DNA of 64,000 nt from Salinicola acroporae. GTDB taxonomy: Bacteria > Pseudomonadota > Gammaproteobacteria > Pseudomonadales > Halomonadaceae. The DNA is taken from contig NZ_PZJW01000002.1 in NCBI RefSeq assembly GCF_003206615.1, positions 124,001-188,000 of the forward strand, written 5' to 3'. The position numbers and the translations under genes were made by a program. A model generated the notes under the pieces. That model was not told where the DNA came from, did not search any database, and saw nothing but the letters and a program-made list of their open reading frames with translations. Positions 7,907 to 34,403 of this stretch are shown piece by piece (within the stretch, counting starts at the first letter, position 1; each line of letters begins with the position of its first letter).

Positions 7907-7935
7907 GAAGATGCCGCCTCGCGGGCGGCATCTTC
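7907..7935. terminator. Bidirectional hairpin between the DUF481 gene and maeB
   Basis: Arms GAAGATGCCGCC (7907-7918) and GGCGGCATCTTC (7924-7935) form a perfect 12-bp stem with a 5-base loop. It lies between two convergent genes and the outer A/T pairs give a terminator look in both directions. Confidence 0.75.
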
Positions 7936-26306: not shown

Positions 26307-28436
26307 TCAGACGCCGACCTGCCCGCCGTCCTCCTTCCAGATTGCCACGGTGGCGGCGCGCGGCCGAACCTGGCCACTCGCGGCCCGGGTCGCATCCTGG
26401 GTCAGGGCGTCGCCATCCGCCGGCCAATTTCCAGGATGCTGGATATTGATGAACAGCGAGGTGCGATCCGGCGTCGCGAAGATTCCGGTCACCTCGCAAC
26501 CATTGGGCCCCACGGCAAAGCGCTTGAGCCCGTCCTGATTGCCGGCGCCGACGACCGAACCCGCGCCTGTCTCGGCCGACAGCGCGCCCGGCACCACCGC
26601 CAGCAACTGGTCGTTGGTATAGTCGGCCACGACATTGTCGCTGTTGTCGGTCTGGAACCAAAGAATGCCCTGCCCATCGCCACGCTCGTCGTACCACAGG
26701 CCGTCGGGACTCGCGAACTGGTTGCTCCGGGTCAGGCCTGACCGGTTGGTCTCGGCGTCGGCGTCGCTACCGAACACGAAGATCTCCCAGGCGAAGCGGT
26801 TGTCCGGCTGCTCGCGCCAGCGAATGATATGACCACTCTCGTTGTCGGCTACCGGGTTGGCGGCGTTGGTCGGCGCCGTCGCGTAACCGCTGCCCACCTC
26901 GTCGACTGCCGCACCGCCATTGGTGAAAGTGGCCTCGGTACCGTCCGCGGTGCGCTTGGCGTTGTTGGTCAGCGTGAAATAGACCTCGCCGGAGACGGGA
27001 TCCACGCTCGACCACTCCGGACGATCCATCGGCGTCGCCCCCATCAGATCAGCGGCATCGCAGGTGTGAATGATGATGCCGGCGGCATCGTCAGCCGCCA
27101 GCCCCAGCGCCGCGGCCAGCGTCTCACCTGAGGGGGTTCTGGCGTCCGGCGTCAGAGCCAGCCACTCGCCCCGGCCATCCTCGTCGAAGCGTGCCGCGTA
27201 GAGCGTGCCTTCGTCGAGGTACTTGCTGCCGATCGCCAGACGATCCGCCTCGTTACCCGGTTCGGGCGCATCGGCCGGCTCCCACTTGGCCGCGCTGACG
27301 AACTTGTAGATATACTCGTTGCGCGAGTCGTGACCGGTATAGAACGTGAGCGGCTCGCCGGCGCGCACTGGTCCCGGCCAGCAGCCTTCGTGACGGAAGC
27401 GCCCCAGTGCCGTCCGTTTGGTCGCCGTTGCCTGGGTGTAGGGATCGATCTCGACCACGTAGCCGAAAGTCCGCGCCTCGTTGCGATAGTCATCGGTCGC
27501 CTCTCCCGAGCCGGGTGTGACATCGAAACGCGCGAACTCGTCGTCCTGCTCGCCATCGCCGGCGGCGGTCTCCCAACCGTAGCGGCCGCGATCGGTTGGC
27601 AGCCCCAGGCGGGCATCATCTGGGAAGCGCTCCCCGGTGTTGACGAATACTTCCGGCCAGTTTTCCTCGCAGGTCAGGTAGGTACCCCAGGGGGTATAAC
27701 CGTTGGCACAGTTGTTGTTGGTGCCCCGGGCTCGCCGGCCATCGGTGGCGTAGCGCGTCCGGACATAGTCGCTGCCCGCGACCGGCCCAGACAGCAGCAT
27801 CGGGGTCGCCGTGGTGAGACGCCGGTTGTAGGGGGAGTCGGCCACGTGCATCCAGCTACCATCGTCCTGACGCCGGATCTCGACGATCGTGACACCGTGA
27901 GCGTTGATTTCGGTGCGTACTTCATCGGCCGGCCGTACGCCCTCCGGCTGGGTCGGCCCTCCCTGCGGCGCCCACAGCGCCTGCTGGTCGATGTACTCGT
28001 TGTTGAGCGCGAGCAGGAAACGTCGAGAGGCACTCTCCGGGTCCAACGGGAAGGCGTGCATCCCGTCATGATGCATGCCCACGCTGTTCGCCTGCTGCTC
28101 AGGGGTCATGGCGAGATCCCCAGCCCAATCCTTCGCCCGGGCGTTGAGCGGCGTTCCCCAGGGAATCAACACTTGCGCCCGATACCCCCCGGGCACCACG
28201 ATCGCGTCGGTGCGCGATCCCTGAACCGCCTCGAACGCCAGTGCCAATGGGGTTTTGCCCTGGGCCAAGGCACGCTGGGTGCCAGCGAGGCCGAATCCGC
28301 CCATCATCGAGAGTGCTGCCATCCCCAGGCCGCCTCTTAGAATCTGGCGGCGCGAGAGGTGACGCTCGACGATATCGCCGAAAGGCACGTTGTGGCTGTT
28401 GTTGTGAATGCGATGATCTTCGACGTCCCGGCTCAT
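26307..28436 (-). CDS. PhoX-type alkaline phosphatase, Tat-exported (DUF839)
   Basis: The 709-residue protein belongs to the PhoX family of calcium/iron phosphatases that release phosphate from organic monoesters in the periplasm. Residues 28-36 (SRRQILRGG) form a twin-arginine signal followed by a hydrophobic stretch ending near LAQGK. Family blocks include CANGYTPWGTYLTCEENWPEV (a metal-ligand region), RFRHEGCWPG, NEYIYKFVSAAKW, and near the C-terminus GIFATPDRTSLFINIQHPG. The protein is strongly acidic. The start at 28436 follows AGGGAGATGAC. A weak Pho-box-like sequence lies upstream. DUF839 proteins also include non-phosphatase members, so activity is inferred. Confidence 0.85.
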   Translation of the reverse strand: MSRDVEDHRIHNNSHNVPFGDIVERHLSRRQILRGGLGMAALSMMGGFGLAGTQRALAQGKTPLALAFEAVQGSRTDAIVVPGGYRAQVLIPWGTPLNARAKDWAGDLAMTPEQQANSVGMHHDGMHAFPLDPESASRRFLLALNNEYIDQQALWAPQGGPTQPEGVRPADEVRTEINAHGVTIVEIRRQDDGSWMHVADSPYNRRLTTATPMLLSGPVAGSDYVRTRYATDGRRARGTNNNCANGYTPWGTYLTCEENWPEVFVNTGERFPDDARLGLPTDRGRYGWETAAGDGEQDDEFARFDVTPGSGEATDDYRNEARTFGYVVEIDPYTQATATKRTALGRFRHEGCWPGPVRAGEPLTFYTGHDSRNEYIYKFVSAAKWEPADAPEPGNEADRLAIGSKYLDEGTLYAARFDEDGRGEWLALTPDARTPSGETLAAALGLAADDAAGIIIHTCDAADLMGATPMDRPEWSSVDPVSGEVYFTLTNNAKRTADGTEATFTNGGAAVDEVGSGYATAPTNAANPVADNESGHIIRWREQPDNRFAWEIFVFGSDADAETNRSGLTRSNQFASPDGLWYDERGDGQGILWFQTDNSDNVVADYTNDQLLAVVPGALSAETGAGSVVGAGNQDGLKRFAVGPNGCEVTGIFATPDRTSLFINIQHPGNWPADGDALTQDATRAASGQVRPRAATVAIWKEDGGQVGV

Positions 28437-28492
28437 GTCATCTCCCTTGCCTTGTCACGGATTGATCGTCGTGACGAGGCTAGTCCGGAGAC

Positions 28493-28510
28493 ATGACGAA
28501 ATGATGTCGA
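28493..28510 (-). promoter_or_regulatory. Weak Pho-box-like direct repeat upstream of phoX
   Basis: On the minus strand TCGACAT-CATT-TCGTCAT resembles the PhoB site (CTGTCAT-4 bp-CTGTCAC) at about 9 of 14 half-site positions. A TAGCCT hexamer 10 bp past it could be the -10. It is 57 bp from the start codon. A database matrix score would decide. Confidence 0.3.
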
Positions 28511-28539
28511 AAGCGATCGACGACCCTCTCCCCGGCTGT

Positions 28540-29607
28540 TCAGGTCGAGCGCAGACGTTCGGCCGCTCGCGTCAGCAGGCTGTCGGTCGCTTCCCAGCCC
28601 AGGCAGGCGTCGGTGATCGAGACGCCATAGCGGAGTGCCGAGGGGTTGAGCGCCTGCTTTCCCTCGAACAGATGACTTTCGAGCATCACACCGATCAGGC
28701 TGCGGTCGCCCGCCAGGCGCTGCTCCAGCACATCGTAGAGAACTTCGGTCTGGCGGCGATGATCCTTGCGCGCGTTGGCATGGCTGCAGTCGACCATGAT
28801 CCTCGCCTCGAGCCCTGCCTGCGACATCGCCCGGCGACTGGCGGCGATGCTGGCGGCGTCGTGATTGGGCCCGGCCTGGCCGCCGCGGAGCACCAGATGC
28901 GTGGCGGGGTTTCCCGAGGTTTCGATCATCGCCGGGTACCCTTCGGCCGTGATCCCGAAATGGCGATGGGGATGCGCGGCAGACTGCATCGCGGCAATCG
29001 CCACGTCGACATTGCCCTGGGTGCCGTTCTTGAAGCCCACCGTCGCCGCCAGGCCGCTGGCCAGCTCGCGATGAATCTGTGATTCGGTGGTACGCGCCCC
29101 GATCGCCACCCAACTCAGCAGATCGTCGAAATAGGCACCCGCCATCGGCTGCAGCAGCTCCGTCGCTACCGGCAACCCCAGTTCGGCGATATCCCGCATG
29201 AGCCGTCTCGCCATGGCCAGCCCCGCTGCCATGTCGTCGCTGCCGTCGAGATGGGGATCGTAGGCCATGCCCTTCCAGCCGACCGTCGTGCGCGGCTTTT
29301 CCACGTACACCCGCATGACCAGCAGCAGTCGATCGCCTACCACCTTGTCGAGTGCTGCCAGCCGCTCGGCGTACTCCAGCGCGGCGACGGGGTCGTGGAC
29401 GGAACAGGGGCCGGTCACTACCAGCAGACGGTCATCCTCACCATCGAGAATGGCACGAACCGCCTGCCGATTGTCGGCGATCTGCCTGGCGAGCGAGGCA
29501 CTCACCGGCAGTCTCTGGCGCAGTTCGTATGCCGATGGCAAGGGCAGCGGTCTTGCCGGCCCTGGTGTCGAGGAGGTCGGTTTCCGTAGGGAGGTAGCAG
29601 CGTCCAT
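28540..29607 (-). CDS. 3-deoxy-7-phosphoheptulonate (DAHP) synthase, class I
   Basis: The enzyme condenses phosphoenolpyruvate and erythrose 4-phosphate, the first step of aromatic amino acid synthesis. The 355-residue protein follows the AroF/AroG/AroH pattern: TGPCSVHDP, RVYVEKPRTTVGWKG, SWVAIGARTTESQIHRELASGL, VGFKNGTQGN, IMVDCSHANARKD and GVMLESHLFEGKQ. The position of AroG Ser180, part of the Phe effector site, reads Ala here (GLAATVGFKNG), so effector choice cannot be inferred from AroG. A leader peptide rich in Phe, Tyr and Trp lies 131 bp upstream, indicating control by aromatic amino acids. Confidence 0.94.
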   Translation of the reverse strand: MDAATSLRKPTSSTPGPARPLPLPSAYELRQRLPVSASLARQIADNRQAVRAILDGEDDRLLVVTGPCSVHDPVAALEYAERLAALDKVVGDRLLLVMRVYVEKPRTTVGWKGMAYDPHLDGSDDMAAGLAMARRLMRDIAELGLPVATELLQPMAGAYFDDLLSWVAIGARTTESQIHRELASGLAATVGFKNGTQGNVDVAIAAMQSAAHPHRHFGITAEGYPAMIETSGNPATHLVLRGGQAGPNHDAASIAASRRAMSQAGLEARIMVDCSHANARKDHRRQTEVLYDVLEQRLAGDRSLIGVMLESHLFEGKQALNPSALRYGVSITDACLGWEATDSLLTRAAERLRST

Positions 29608-29656
29608 AACGATCTCTTTTCATGATTGTGTTTCAAGGATTGAGACCCGAAACGCG

Positions 29657-29690
29657 AGAACCCCCGGATGGGCTGCCATCCGGGGGTTCT
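29657..29690 (-). terminator. Attenuator hairpin upstream of the DAHP synthase gene
   Basis: Arms AGAACCCCCGGATGG and CCATCCGGGGGTTCT pair perfectly over 15 bp with a 4-base loop, 50 bp before the gene. On the transcribed strand it is followed by TTCT (in the stem) and CGCGTTTC, an imperfect U tract. Its loop and closing pairs (GGCAGCCCA on the RNA) are complementary to TGGGCTGCC in the preceding hairpin, so alternative folds exist. Confidence 0.7.
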
Positions 29691-29699
29691 TGAAGCGAG

Positions 29700-29726
29700 G
29701 AGGCAGCCCAGGTCCGGGCGTGCCTC
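29700..29726 (-). promoter_or_regulatory. Upstream hairpin of the attenuator
   Basis: On the transcribed strand GAGGCA-C-GCCC pairs with GGGC-TGCCTC around a 6-base loop. It starts 11 bases after the leader-peptide stop. Its 5' arm (GGCACGCC) can instead pair with GGCGTGCC inside the leader reading frame, and its 3' arm with the loop of the terminator-like hairpin. Confidence 0.6.
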
Positions 29727-29737
29727 GCGGGTTCAGG

Positions 29738-29863
29738 TCATGTCGACCAACCGGCGGGCACGCCAGTCCTAAACCAATAGCCATAACCGGAGAACGCAAA
29801 CGCCATCGCATCGCCAGCAGGGCTGGCGATGTCGATCTGGGCGATATCGTGGCGTTCGGTCAT
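29738..29863 (-). CDS. Candidate leader peptide of the DAHP synthase gene (41 aa, Phe/Tyr/Trp-rich)
   Basis: A short reading frame runs from ATG at 29863 to TGA at 29738, preceded by GGAAAG 4 bases upstream. Residues 22-31 read FAFSGYGYWF: three Phe, two Tyr and one Trp within ten codons. A second Trp is at residue 39. The rest (MTERHDIAQIDIASPAGDAM) is unremarkable. Aromatic codon clustering, a start site, a promoter upstream and two hairpins before an aromatic-pathway gene fit ribosome-mediated attenuation. I do not recognise the peptide as a described family. Confidence 0.75.
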   Translation of the reverse strand: MTERHDIAQIDIASPAGDAMAFAFSGYGYWFRTGVPAGWST

Positions 29864-29912
29864 GATGCTTTCCGCTTTCTCGCAGACGTGTGGTGTACGA
29901 AGTCGTGGCTCT

Positions 29913-29940
29913 ATCCTAACGTGACGGCACGGTTTGACAA
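29913..29940 (-). promoter_or_regulatory. Candidate promoter of the leader-DAHP synthase transcript
   Basis: On the minus strand TTGTCA (29940-29935), a 16-bp spacer and TAGGAT (29918-29913) match sigma-70 at 9 of 12 positions. Transcription would begin about 43 bases before the leader ATG. The -35 region is nearly palindromic (TTTGACAAG) and could also be read towards the sigma-factor gene. Confidence 0.6.
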
Positions 29941-30044
29941 GTCTTTTGATGCCAAAGCGTGAACGGTATTTCTCCAGGCTTTACTTGTTCGATCCCGTTG
30001 ACGAGACTGCTAATCAAGAAAAAGAAAGAATTCAAAGGACTTTC

Positions 30045-30599
30045 ATGGCTTACCCGCCTCATGACGTGTTGATCGACAATCTCCAGGCTTGCGCTCGCGG
30101 CGATGGTCCTGCGTTCGAAAAGCTCTACCGCGCGACCAGCCCGCATCTGTATGCGCAGTTGCTGCGTATCGTCAGGCAGGAAGCGGCGGCTCAGGACTGC
30201 CTGCAACTCGTCTACCTCCGTGTATGGCAGGTGGCCGGCCAGTACGATGCCGGCCGTGCCAGGCCGATGACCTGGCTGTCGACGCTGACGCGCAACATCG
30301 GTATCGACTGGCTCAGGCGCCAGCGGCCGCAGGAGGCCGACGGCGATGCCATCATCGAGACGCTGCCGGGAGAATCCGATCTCGAGAGCGAGAGTGATAT
30401 CAATCAGCAGGCGGAGTCGCTGCAACTCTGCTTGACCGAATTGACGATGCAGCAGCGCCAGGCGCTCGAACTGGCATTTTTCGAGGGCCTGACCCACCAC
30501 GATCTGGCATCGCACCTGGGCACGCCACTGGGCACCGTCAAGAGTTGGGTCCGAAGAGGCCTGGAGAGGTTGAAAGCATGCATGACACGTTTCGCCTGA
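30045..30599 (+). CDS. ECF-family RNA polymerase sigma factor
   Basis: The 184-residue protein has sigma region 2 (FEKLYRATSPHLYAQLLRIV, region 2.2 DCLQLVYLRVWQ, region 2.4 around MTWLSTLTRNIGIDWLRRQ). Region 4 has a helix-turn-helix (QQRQALELAFFEGLTHHDLASHLGTPLGTVKSWVRRGLERL). It is closest in type to SigK-like factors paired with RskA anti-sigma proteins. The start at 30045 follows AAAGGA; an upstream extension to 29934 lacks sigma homology. The anti-sigma gene overlaps its last 22 bases. The regulon cannot be told from the window. Confidence 0.92.
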   Translation: MAYPPHDVLIDNLQACARGDGPAFEKLYRATSPHLYAQLLRIVRQEAAAQDCLQLVYLRVWQVAGQYDAGRARPMTWLSTLTRNIGIDWLRRQRPQEADGDAIIETLPGESDLESESDINQQAESLQLCLTELTMQQRQALELAFFEGLTHHDLASHLGTPLGTVKSWVRRGLERLKACMTRFA

Positions 30600-31285
30600 C
30601 CGATCCCGAGGAGCGCGAGATGGCTGCCGGCGAATACGTCCTGGGCACCCTGACGGGCGATCAGCGGGCCGAATTCGAGGCCCTGCTGGCGGTCAGCGCG
30701 GATCTCCAGCACAGCGTCGAAGCCTGGCGGGAACGGCTGCAGCTCTTCAACCAGCAACTGGAACCCGTCGCGCCGCCCAGGAGAATCTGGCCGGATATCG
30801 CGGCGCGCCTGGGGCTGAAGACGGGGCCATTGCAACGGCTGGGTTTCTGGCGCGCGTTCAGCGGCATCGCCACTGCAGCGGCGCTGATCCTGGCGATCGT
30901 GGCACTGGTGCCGCGGGAGCCGGCCATGATGCCCGGCGAGTACGTCTTCGTGATCAACCAGCCCAACGGCCAGACGGCCTGGATTTTGAACGCCACGCTC
31001 AACGGCAAGATGATGGTGCAGACGGTATCGCCGGAACCGATGCCGGAAGGCAAGGGCGGTGAGCTATGGATGATGGAGAACGGGACGCCGGTGTCTTTGG
31101 GCATGCTGCCGGCCCATGGCGAAGCCACCATGCAACTGCCCGCCAAGATGCTGGGGCTGATGAAGACCGCCGATTTCGCGGTGAGCATGGAACCCAGCGC
31201 CGGCGCGCCCGGCGGCAAACCGACCGGCCCGGTGATCGACGCGGGCAAACTGGTACAGATTCGCAGCGCTACCGTCTCGCTGTAG
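30578..31285 (+). CDS. RskA-family anti-sigma factor
   Basis: The 235-residue protein has an N-terminal cytoplasmic anti-sigma domain (DPEEREMAAGEYVLGTLTGDQRAEFEALLA). A single transmembrane helix spans about residues 90-112 (FSGIATAAALILAIVALVP). The periplasmic RskA domain follows (VFVINQPNGQTAWILNATLNG, GGELWMMENGTPVSLGMLP). It would sequester the upstream sigma factor at the membrane until regulated proteolysis frees it; RseP of this same window is a candidate site-2 protease, by inference only. The gene overlaps the sigma gene, as is usual for such pairs. Confidence 0.9.
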   Translation: MHDTFRLTDPEEREMAAGEYVLGTLTGDQRAEFEALLAVSADLQHSVEAWRERLQLFNQQLEPVAPPRRIWPDIAARLGLKTGPLQRLGFWRAFSGIATAAALILAIVALVPREPAMMPGEYVFVINQPNGQTAWILNATLNGKMMVQTVSPEPMPEGKGGELWMMENGTPVSLGMLPAHGEATMQLPAKMLGLMKTADFAVSMEPSAGAPGGKPTGPVIDAGKLVQIRSATVSL

Positions 31286-34376: not shown

Positions 34377-34403
34377 AGAGGGCAGCATAACATGCTGCCC
34401 TCT
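34377..34403 (-). terminator. Terminator-like hairpin between rho and ubiD
   Basis: AGAGGGCAGCA (34377-34387) and TGCTGCCCTCT (34393-34403) form a perfect 11-bp stem with a 5-base loop. On the minus strand it is followed by TTTGCGTTC, a short broken T tract. It lies downstream of rho and upstream of ubiD. Confidence 0.7.

Follow-up and report, generated by a model that had tools for sequence, protein, structure and literature searches.

A putative attenuator related to Rfam P15, with Phe, Tyr and Trp codons in one leader frame, precedes a DAHP synthase gene in Salinicola acroporae

The DAHP synthase isoenzymes of E. coli are under separate control. A locus in Salinicola acroporae raises the question of whether a single leader peptide could report all three aromatic amino acids to one DAHP synthase gene. 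The locus lies within the stretch of DNA analysed here, 64,000 nucleotides of contig NZ_PZJW01000002.1 (the window), and an initial annotation had read it as an aromatic-amino-acid attenuator. On the minus strand, a promoter-like site, a 41-codon frame, two hairpins and the DAHP synthase gene follow one another in this order. The gene thought to be controlled (28540–29607, minus strand) encodes a class I DAHP synthase (3-deoxy-7-phosphoheptulonate synthase), as had been proposed; its product scores 447 bits against TIGR00034 and 508 bits against NF009395, above the cut-offs of 173 and 343 bits, respectively. The same genome holds three genes similar to it at E-values up to 1e-60. The good promoter noted ahead of the frame is present as the promoter-like hexamers TTGTCA (29940–29935) and TAGGAT (29918–29913), found by a site scan on the minus strand and separated by 16 nt. 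Two sites of this kind occur in 2 kb, compared with 0.5 expected from shuffles, and similar sites are visible by eye in other Salinicola loci. Also by eye, the divergent frames at 29934–31285 resemble an ECF sigma factor with an anti-sigma protein behind it.

The leader frame sits where the initial annotation had placed it (29863–29738, minus strand, in the list of frames) and reads MTERHDIAQIDIASPAGDAMAFAFSGYGYWFRTGVPAGWST up to its stop codon. The ribosome-binding site ascribed to it is present, in modest form, as GCGGAAAG, which stops 4 nt short of the ATG. All 15 distinct Salinicola leaders contain this frame, and a Trp-Phe (or Tyr-Phe) leader motif lies upstream of the related gene in 104/104 distinct regions, which represent the closest relatives and not a random sample. 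Codon counts, stalled-ribosome folds and the Salinicola comparison all bear on the control codons F22 to F31 (FAFSGYGYWF; 29800–29771, minus strand). For the counts, 107 leaders (99 distinct) were thinned to 52, after exclusion of L052, L059 and L072, which lack a terminator by pattern; the first leaders of L017 and L023 fell outside the catch of a 420-base window and were found by motif. Over the 12 codons ending at the last Phe of the cluster, 303 of 624 codons are aromatic in these 52 non-redundant leaders, compared with 34/572 and 73/572 in the other two frames, an excess that arises partly by construction because the 12-codon windows are anchored on the Trp-Phe (or Tyr-Phe) motif. Phe, Tyr and Trp are all present there in 52/52 leaders, again partly by construction of the anchor, and the order of the aromatic residues varies (FSGYGYWF, FGFSYWYWF, SFYFGYWF, YFFYGYWF). 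Among the control codons, TAT outnumbers TAC by 102 to 15 and TTT outnumbers TTC by 90 to 23, although these genomes look GC-rich.

In the 15 Salinicola, codons G26–F31 keep their residues and vary synonymously only, with five changes. F24 is substituted in five of the 14 other Salinicola; W39 lies beyond the control zone and is replaced by Arg in six and by Gly in one of them. Both the RNA and the peptide may constrain the leader bases in Salinicola. A 10-bp hairpin also lies within the frame, ahead of the main aromatic cluster (29831–29809, minus strand). The fold of this region in the window scores −29.5, compared with −17.9 (sd 3.2) in shuffles, and its counterpart lies at least 2 sd below shuffles in nine of 15 Salinicola and not in the other six. 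This candidate pause hairpin might hold the polymerase and let the ribosome catch up. Loci L163–L167 (family f201) bear leaders with eight or nine aromatics per twelve residues, such as FFWWFGYGFYF, before a DAHP synthase; a script search of these loci found no second leader of the kind described below.

The competing pairing segments lie where the initial annotation had set them. On the minus strand, S2 (GGCGTGCC, 29764–29757) is the partner of S4 under an upstream ribosome stall; S4 (GGCACGCC, 29724–29717) pairs with S2 in the read-through state or with S5 in the termination state; S5 (TGGGCTGCC, 29710–29702) pairs with S4 or S6; and S6 (GGCAGCCCA, 29677–29669), which makes up the terminator hairpin's loop and apex, is the antiterminator partner of S5. 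The terminator-like hairpin described earlier has the perfect 15-bp stem ascribed to it, with a loop of 4 (29690–29657, minus strand, by hairpin search). The second of the proposed pairings, GGCACGCCC with GGGCTGCC, exists, although not as a continuous helix: it amounts to 8 bp with a small internal loop, counting a flanking A-U pair. A further pairing, S1:S3 (GGTTTAGG with CCTGAACC), the counterpart of the first stem of P15, was not favoured in the window folds and is not claimed.

To assess these helices, 26 + 24 of the 52 leaders were aligned (L017 and L034 were left out of alignment A1), and covariation was counted in the 26 Halomonadaceae leaders against 500 shuffles per helix. Standard pairs fill 97.1% of cells in S2:S4, with 15 double-change cells against a shuffle mean of 4.4. 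For S5:S6 the values are 90.0% and 14 (shuffle mean 5.0), and for the terminator stem 90.6% and 23 (shuffle mean 5.2); in each of the three, 0/500 shuffles reach the observed count. Double changes affect six pairs of the terminator stem, compared with 2.6 in shuffles, and two pairs of S2:S4, which is no excess over the 1.9 in shuffles. S5:S6 shows fewer pair types than its shuffles, and its outermost pair is unpaired in 15/24 sequences with letters on both sides. In S4:S5, 95.6% of cells pair and covariation does not exceed that of the shuffles among the 26 leaders, which is no proof either way. Slid controls matter because relatedness alone can beat shuffles: at most 54.9% of cells pair in slid S2:S4, 56.9% in slid S5:S6 and 72.7% in the slid terminator. 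Sliding S5:S6 by −3 yields a covariation score of 0.134, compared with 0.131 in register, with only 57% of cells pairing. The antiterminator and terminator pairings are mutually exclusive, and three of the four helices counted (S2:S4, S5:S6 and the terminator) covary. The comparison across relatives that had been suggested thus found the frame, its aromatic codons and the competing pairings conserved.

The initial annotation could not say by hand which fold wins at which stall site. We computed equilibrium folds of only the stretch of RNA between ribosome and polymerase, with the ribosome edge set 15 nt past the first base of the P-site codon. With the window RNA free to 29664, the probability of S5:S6 is 0.72–0.99 for every A-site codon from 19 to 31, 0.22 at codon 32 and at most 0.04 from codon 33 on. 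Averaged over lengths 29670–29659, it is 0.69 at Y27, 0.81 at Y29, 0.96 at W30 and 0.91 at F31, and then 0.40 at R32, 0.26 at G34, 0.23 at W39 and 0.27 at the stop codon. These folds by stall codon place the switch point just past the last aromatic codon of the cluster. For an untranslated leader without a ribosome, the mean over the same lengths is 0.61, which predicts partial read-through. More specifically, W30 or F31 in the A site keeps the balance on the side of the antiterminator until free RNA extends to 29659, and a Tyr stall does so until 29662 or 29661. When the ribosome sits at G34, W39 or the stop codon, the terminator prevails from 29666 onwards. The fold in the window thus depends in silico on ribosome position at RNA lengths 29666–29659. 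At lengths 29670–29668 the antiterminator wins whatever the ribosome position, and from 29657 on the complete terminator always wins, so the switch must be kinetic.

In the 26 relatives, the mean probability of S5:S6 is 0.75 at a Tyr stall, 0.76 at Trp and 0.47 at Phe, falling to 0.25 one codon past Phe and 0.19 two codons past. When switching is defined as a probability of at least 0.5 at Trp and below 0.5 at +3, the change of fold just past the cluster that is seen in the window recurs in 18/26 relatives (L011 is borderline). The other eight do not switch, four being always off and four always on; Salinicola L099 is among the always-on relatives, and Salinicola L008 returns to the on state at later codons. 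When the S2 codons were recoded synonymously in 64 versions, the antiterminator was lowered only in part, with 8/64 versions matching or beating the natural one at G28, 23/64 at Y29 and 35/64 at W30. A cruder measure, general terminator-apex pairing, was applied to the Pseudomonas-type and Halomonadaceae leaders. The Pseudomonas-type set holds 24 leaders, including one from Halotalea and one from a gammaproteobacterial MAG; in the 21 scored, the values are 0.69 at Tyr, 0.68 at Trp and 0.64 at Phe, then 0.17, 0.08 and 0.08. At the stop codon these leaders are not cleanly off (mean 0.44); compared with the stop, the Trp stall is higher by over 0.2 in 11 leaders and lower by over 0.2 in one. The same measure on Halomonadaceae (20/26 scored) was set aside, as the script picked the wrong hairpin in several; it gave means of 0.66, 0.62, 0.57, 0.40, 0.40 and 0.38 and 0.62 at the stop, with Trp above the stop by 0.2 in four leaders and below it in none. 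By this set-aside measure, at a shorter RNA length, the window scores 0.88 for the Trp stall and 0.70 for the stop.

The conserved frame, codons and pairings, the covariation and the folds that switch past the aromatic cluster support the attenuator interpretation put forward initially. The element very probably acts as a his/trp-like attenuator of transcription, mediated by the ribosome, through which the DAHP synthase gene responds to charged tRNA-Phe, tRNA-Tyr and tRNA-Trp. In cells, the leader frame would be translated and its ribosome would presumably respond to each of the three amino acids. With Phe, Tyr and Trp plentiful, the ribosome would run beyond codon 31 and cover S2; with S2 masked, the S4:S5 hairpin would form and leave S6 free, and the terminator would then fold and release a short RNA, the counterpart of P15. 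If one of the three were short, the ribosome would stall inside F22–F31, leaving S2 free to pair with S4 and to release S5. S5 would in turn pair with S6 in the terminator loop, the terminator would fold late, and the polymerase would continue into the DAHP synthase gene. Such a kinetic race, and termination itself, are predicted from the folds. Doubts about the attenuator reading come from the U-poor tail in Salinicola, S4:S5 without covariation, the eight of 26 relatives that do not switch and the partial effect of recoding.

The tail bears most directly on whether the hairpin terminates transcription. In the window, the hairpin is followed by CGCGTTTCGGGT (29656–29645, minus strand), with 4 T of 12, and the tail is U-poor in the Salinicola leaders examined. 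Because of this tail, a terminator scan of 28400–30400 called no site at the hairpin; it found no terminator-like site in that region, where 1.3 would be expected in shuffles. Among the 12 hairpins of the window, some have richer tails, with 8/12 on the plus and 6/12 on the minus strand at 34377–34403 and 6/12 on the minus strand at 7907–7935. Pseudomonas-type leaders have clear U-tracts behind the corresponding hairpin, as do some of the Halomonadaceae.

The U-poor tail could mean that the attenuator is decaying in Salinicola, with a hairpin that terminates poorly and control exerted elsewhere. The loss of clean switching in silico in Salinicola L008 and L099 and the lack of the second leader in 15/15 Salinicola (see below) point the same way. 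Within the family, however, compensating changes keep the pairing segments, and the Tyr-Trp-Phe codons vary only synonymously in Salinicola, which makes decay unlikely. The same tail, together with the mere 49 nt from the terminator hairpin to the start codon of the DAHP synthase gene, could also suit control at translation, in which the alternating folds would alter access to the ribosome-binding site of the gene rather than termination. That site lies outside the conserved S2–S6, and Pseudomonas-type relatives have clear U-tracts behind the same hairpin; we regard translational control as quite improbable.

The attenuator reading also has to be reconciled with a known RNA family. A cmscan search matched positions 29795–29661 (minus strand) to Rfam RF00627 (P15) over its full length (model 1–119 of 119), with 34.1 bits and an E-value of 1.6e-5, below the gathering threshold of 70 bits. 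Two loci of Pseudomonas reach 125.7 and 110.5 bits at the homologous place before DAHP synthase; for three other Halomonadaceae the scores are 49.8, 26.6 and 24.8 bits. Judged by its alignment, the window element is a divergent relative of P15 and not a member by Rfam's threshold. The two share the full-length alignment, hairpins in the same order and the homologous site before DAHP synthase, and the P15 consensus, read by eye, can be read in frame as Ser-Tyr-Tyr-Phe-Gly-Tyr-Trp, like the aromatic frame of the window. The Pseudomonas loci bear leaders such as one ending in SFYFGYWFSHWRA and a stop codon. In Halomonadaceae-type leaders the frame ends 10–13 codons past the last Phe, compared with six (three in one case) in the Pseudomonas type. 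P15 is catalogued as an sRNA gene, whereas the window element is read here as a leader. A weak match to His_leader (E 0.016) was also obtained on the other strand and was attributed to the palindromic hairpin.

We built a covariance model, R1, from 37 sequences. In the genome itself, its only strong match is the DAHP synthase leader (128.6 bits; next 35). At E-values up to 1 there are six matches, which include the element and its hairpin on the opposite strand. Among the others, C12:192091, matched on both strands, has the look of an ordinary terminator that follows another frame, and C1:254668 lacks an aromatic frame; both were rejected. C4:17446 matches with 18.8 bits. At E-values up to 1e-6, R1 matches 33 of 244 genomes drawn from the order, in five families; in a second order it matches 13 of 85 genomes, which belong to a single family. 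DAHP synthase lies downstream on the same strand at 42/42 loci examined, which cover five of the six matched families, and an aromatic-rich frame accompanies the element at 41/42, L162 being the exception. These loci leave out the matches without a locus in G648, G505 and G714, the last being the sole match of family f217. In a class-wide search of 369 genomes, matches below 1e-10 came from only three of the six families. Eight weaker matches (L125–L128, L130–L133) had no aromatic leader with DAHP synthase behind it, and none was counted.

This distribution bears on the catalogued role of P15, which Rfam lists as an sRNA and which is named among the sRNAs found by Livny et al. in the account of PMC2375449. 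A leader peptide, peTrpL, is described in PMC7298713 as able to work in trans. It is nevertheless highly doubtful that the P15-like RNA is mainly a trans-acting small RNA with an incidental leader frame: the frame at 41/42 loci, the same downstream gene at 42/42 loci of five families and the codon-level constraint in Salinicola count against a trans-only role, because trans action alone would not need them. Trans action may come in addition. From synteny with a TPP riboswitch, PMC2527527 suggests that P15 may be a riboswitch. A riboswitch that binds a metabolite, its reading frame being mere coincidence, can hardly be the explanation here, as the pairings that are conserved amount to simple competing helices linked to a frame and no riboswitch or T-box family of Rfam 15 matches the window (E up to 1) or five relatives (E up to 0.5).

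Beyond the attenuator, many relatives carry a second aromatic leader. The motif TGGCGATTTA (Trp-Arg-Phe), or a near form, occurs in 89/89 close distinct non-Salinicola upstream regions and in 0/15 Salinicola upstream regions; the wider search found the second leader at 21/42 loci. Its frame is Tyr-rich and located between P15 and the DAHP synthase gene. Alignment A4 contains such loci, for example L012:1833–1901 and L009:1861–1929, in which the second leader bears an invariant TGGCGATTTA; by eye, its CCTCC could pair with the ribosome-binding site of the gene in some Halomonas. A4 leaves out L049, L057, L061 and L072, which lack the element, as well as near-identical loci and eight excluded by pattern, including L021, which seemingly has it. 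In the 31 sequences analysed for structure, a hairpin pairs in 92.6% of cells and a loop pairing, GCCACC:GGTGGC, in 99.5%; together they would form a pseudoknot. Support for this structure is only moderate because double changes are few (seven cells, compared with a shuffle mean of 2.4) and sliding the structure by +3 raises their number to 17, with just 50% of cells paired. The second leader was not found in Stutzerimonas, Halopseudomonas and some Pseudomonas loci, and no U-tract was seen behind it by eye. Salinicola appears to have lost it. The evidence leaves evenly balanced the broader proposal that in Pseudomonas and most Halomonadaceae two serial leader peptides guard the first aromatic step: a P15 attenuator, then a structured aromatic leader with an invariant TGG-CGA-TTT core, in many an in-frame pseudoknot, acting without a terminator and perhaps on translation, with Salinicola keeping the first alone.

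How new is this arrangement? The initial annotation had not recognised a three-amino-acid leader on a class I DAHP synthase. That newness is narrowed by the relation of the RNA to Rfam P15 and by a known Phe-Tyr-Phe leader before DAHP synthase in Corynebacterium glutamicum; the rest of the claim holds. A single leader that responds to several products of the same pathway is familiar from ilvGMEDA, which by this description resembles the element in the window and differs in that its amino acids are branched-chain. The closest system with tests is aroR, the leader of aroF in C. glutamicum (Neshat et al. 2014), in which stalling on the Phe-Tyr-Phe peptide raises transcription and which is reported to respond to Phe and not to Tyr (PMC4046766, PMC11802643). 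It likewise places an aromatic leader peptide ahead of a DAHP synthase gene; Trp does not figure in the accounts cited, the phylum is another, and the likeness is one of description. In Acholeplasma, also of another phylum, uORFC-13-1 is described as a short frame that contains one or more Phe codons and lies, together with a terminator, ahead of aroF, and Phe is the only amino acid named in that description (PMC8632094). A Tyr-tRNA attenuator is attributed to aroF in a row of a table in PMC2659441, with reference to an E. coli paper of 1980; by description it combines a DAHP synthase gene with an aromatic tRNA, as in the window, for one amino acid only. The his operon attenuator has, as described in PMC1183508, an extra hairpin; the element in the window likewise has one between its control codons and the terminator, but it would sense three amino acids instead of one and its antiterminator captures the terminator loop and apex. 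Within the open-licence literature searched, no paper was found calling P15 an attenuator, and no case of two leaders in series for aromatic genes was found. Three things seem new: a leader that unites Phe, Tyr and Trp, the interpretation of P15 as an attenuator, and the second leader in series.

The attenuator reading offers a testable function for an Rfam family catalogued as a small RNA and extends that family to at least five bacterial families. If the reading is true, one leader would combine the signals of three amino acids at a single shared first enzyme, and two serial leaders before one gene would be an unusual layout.
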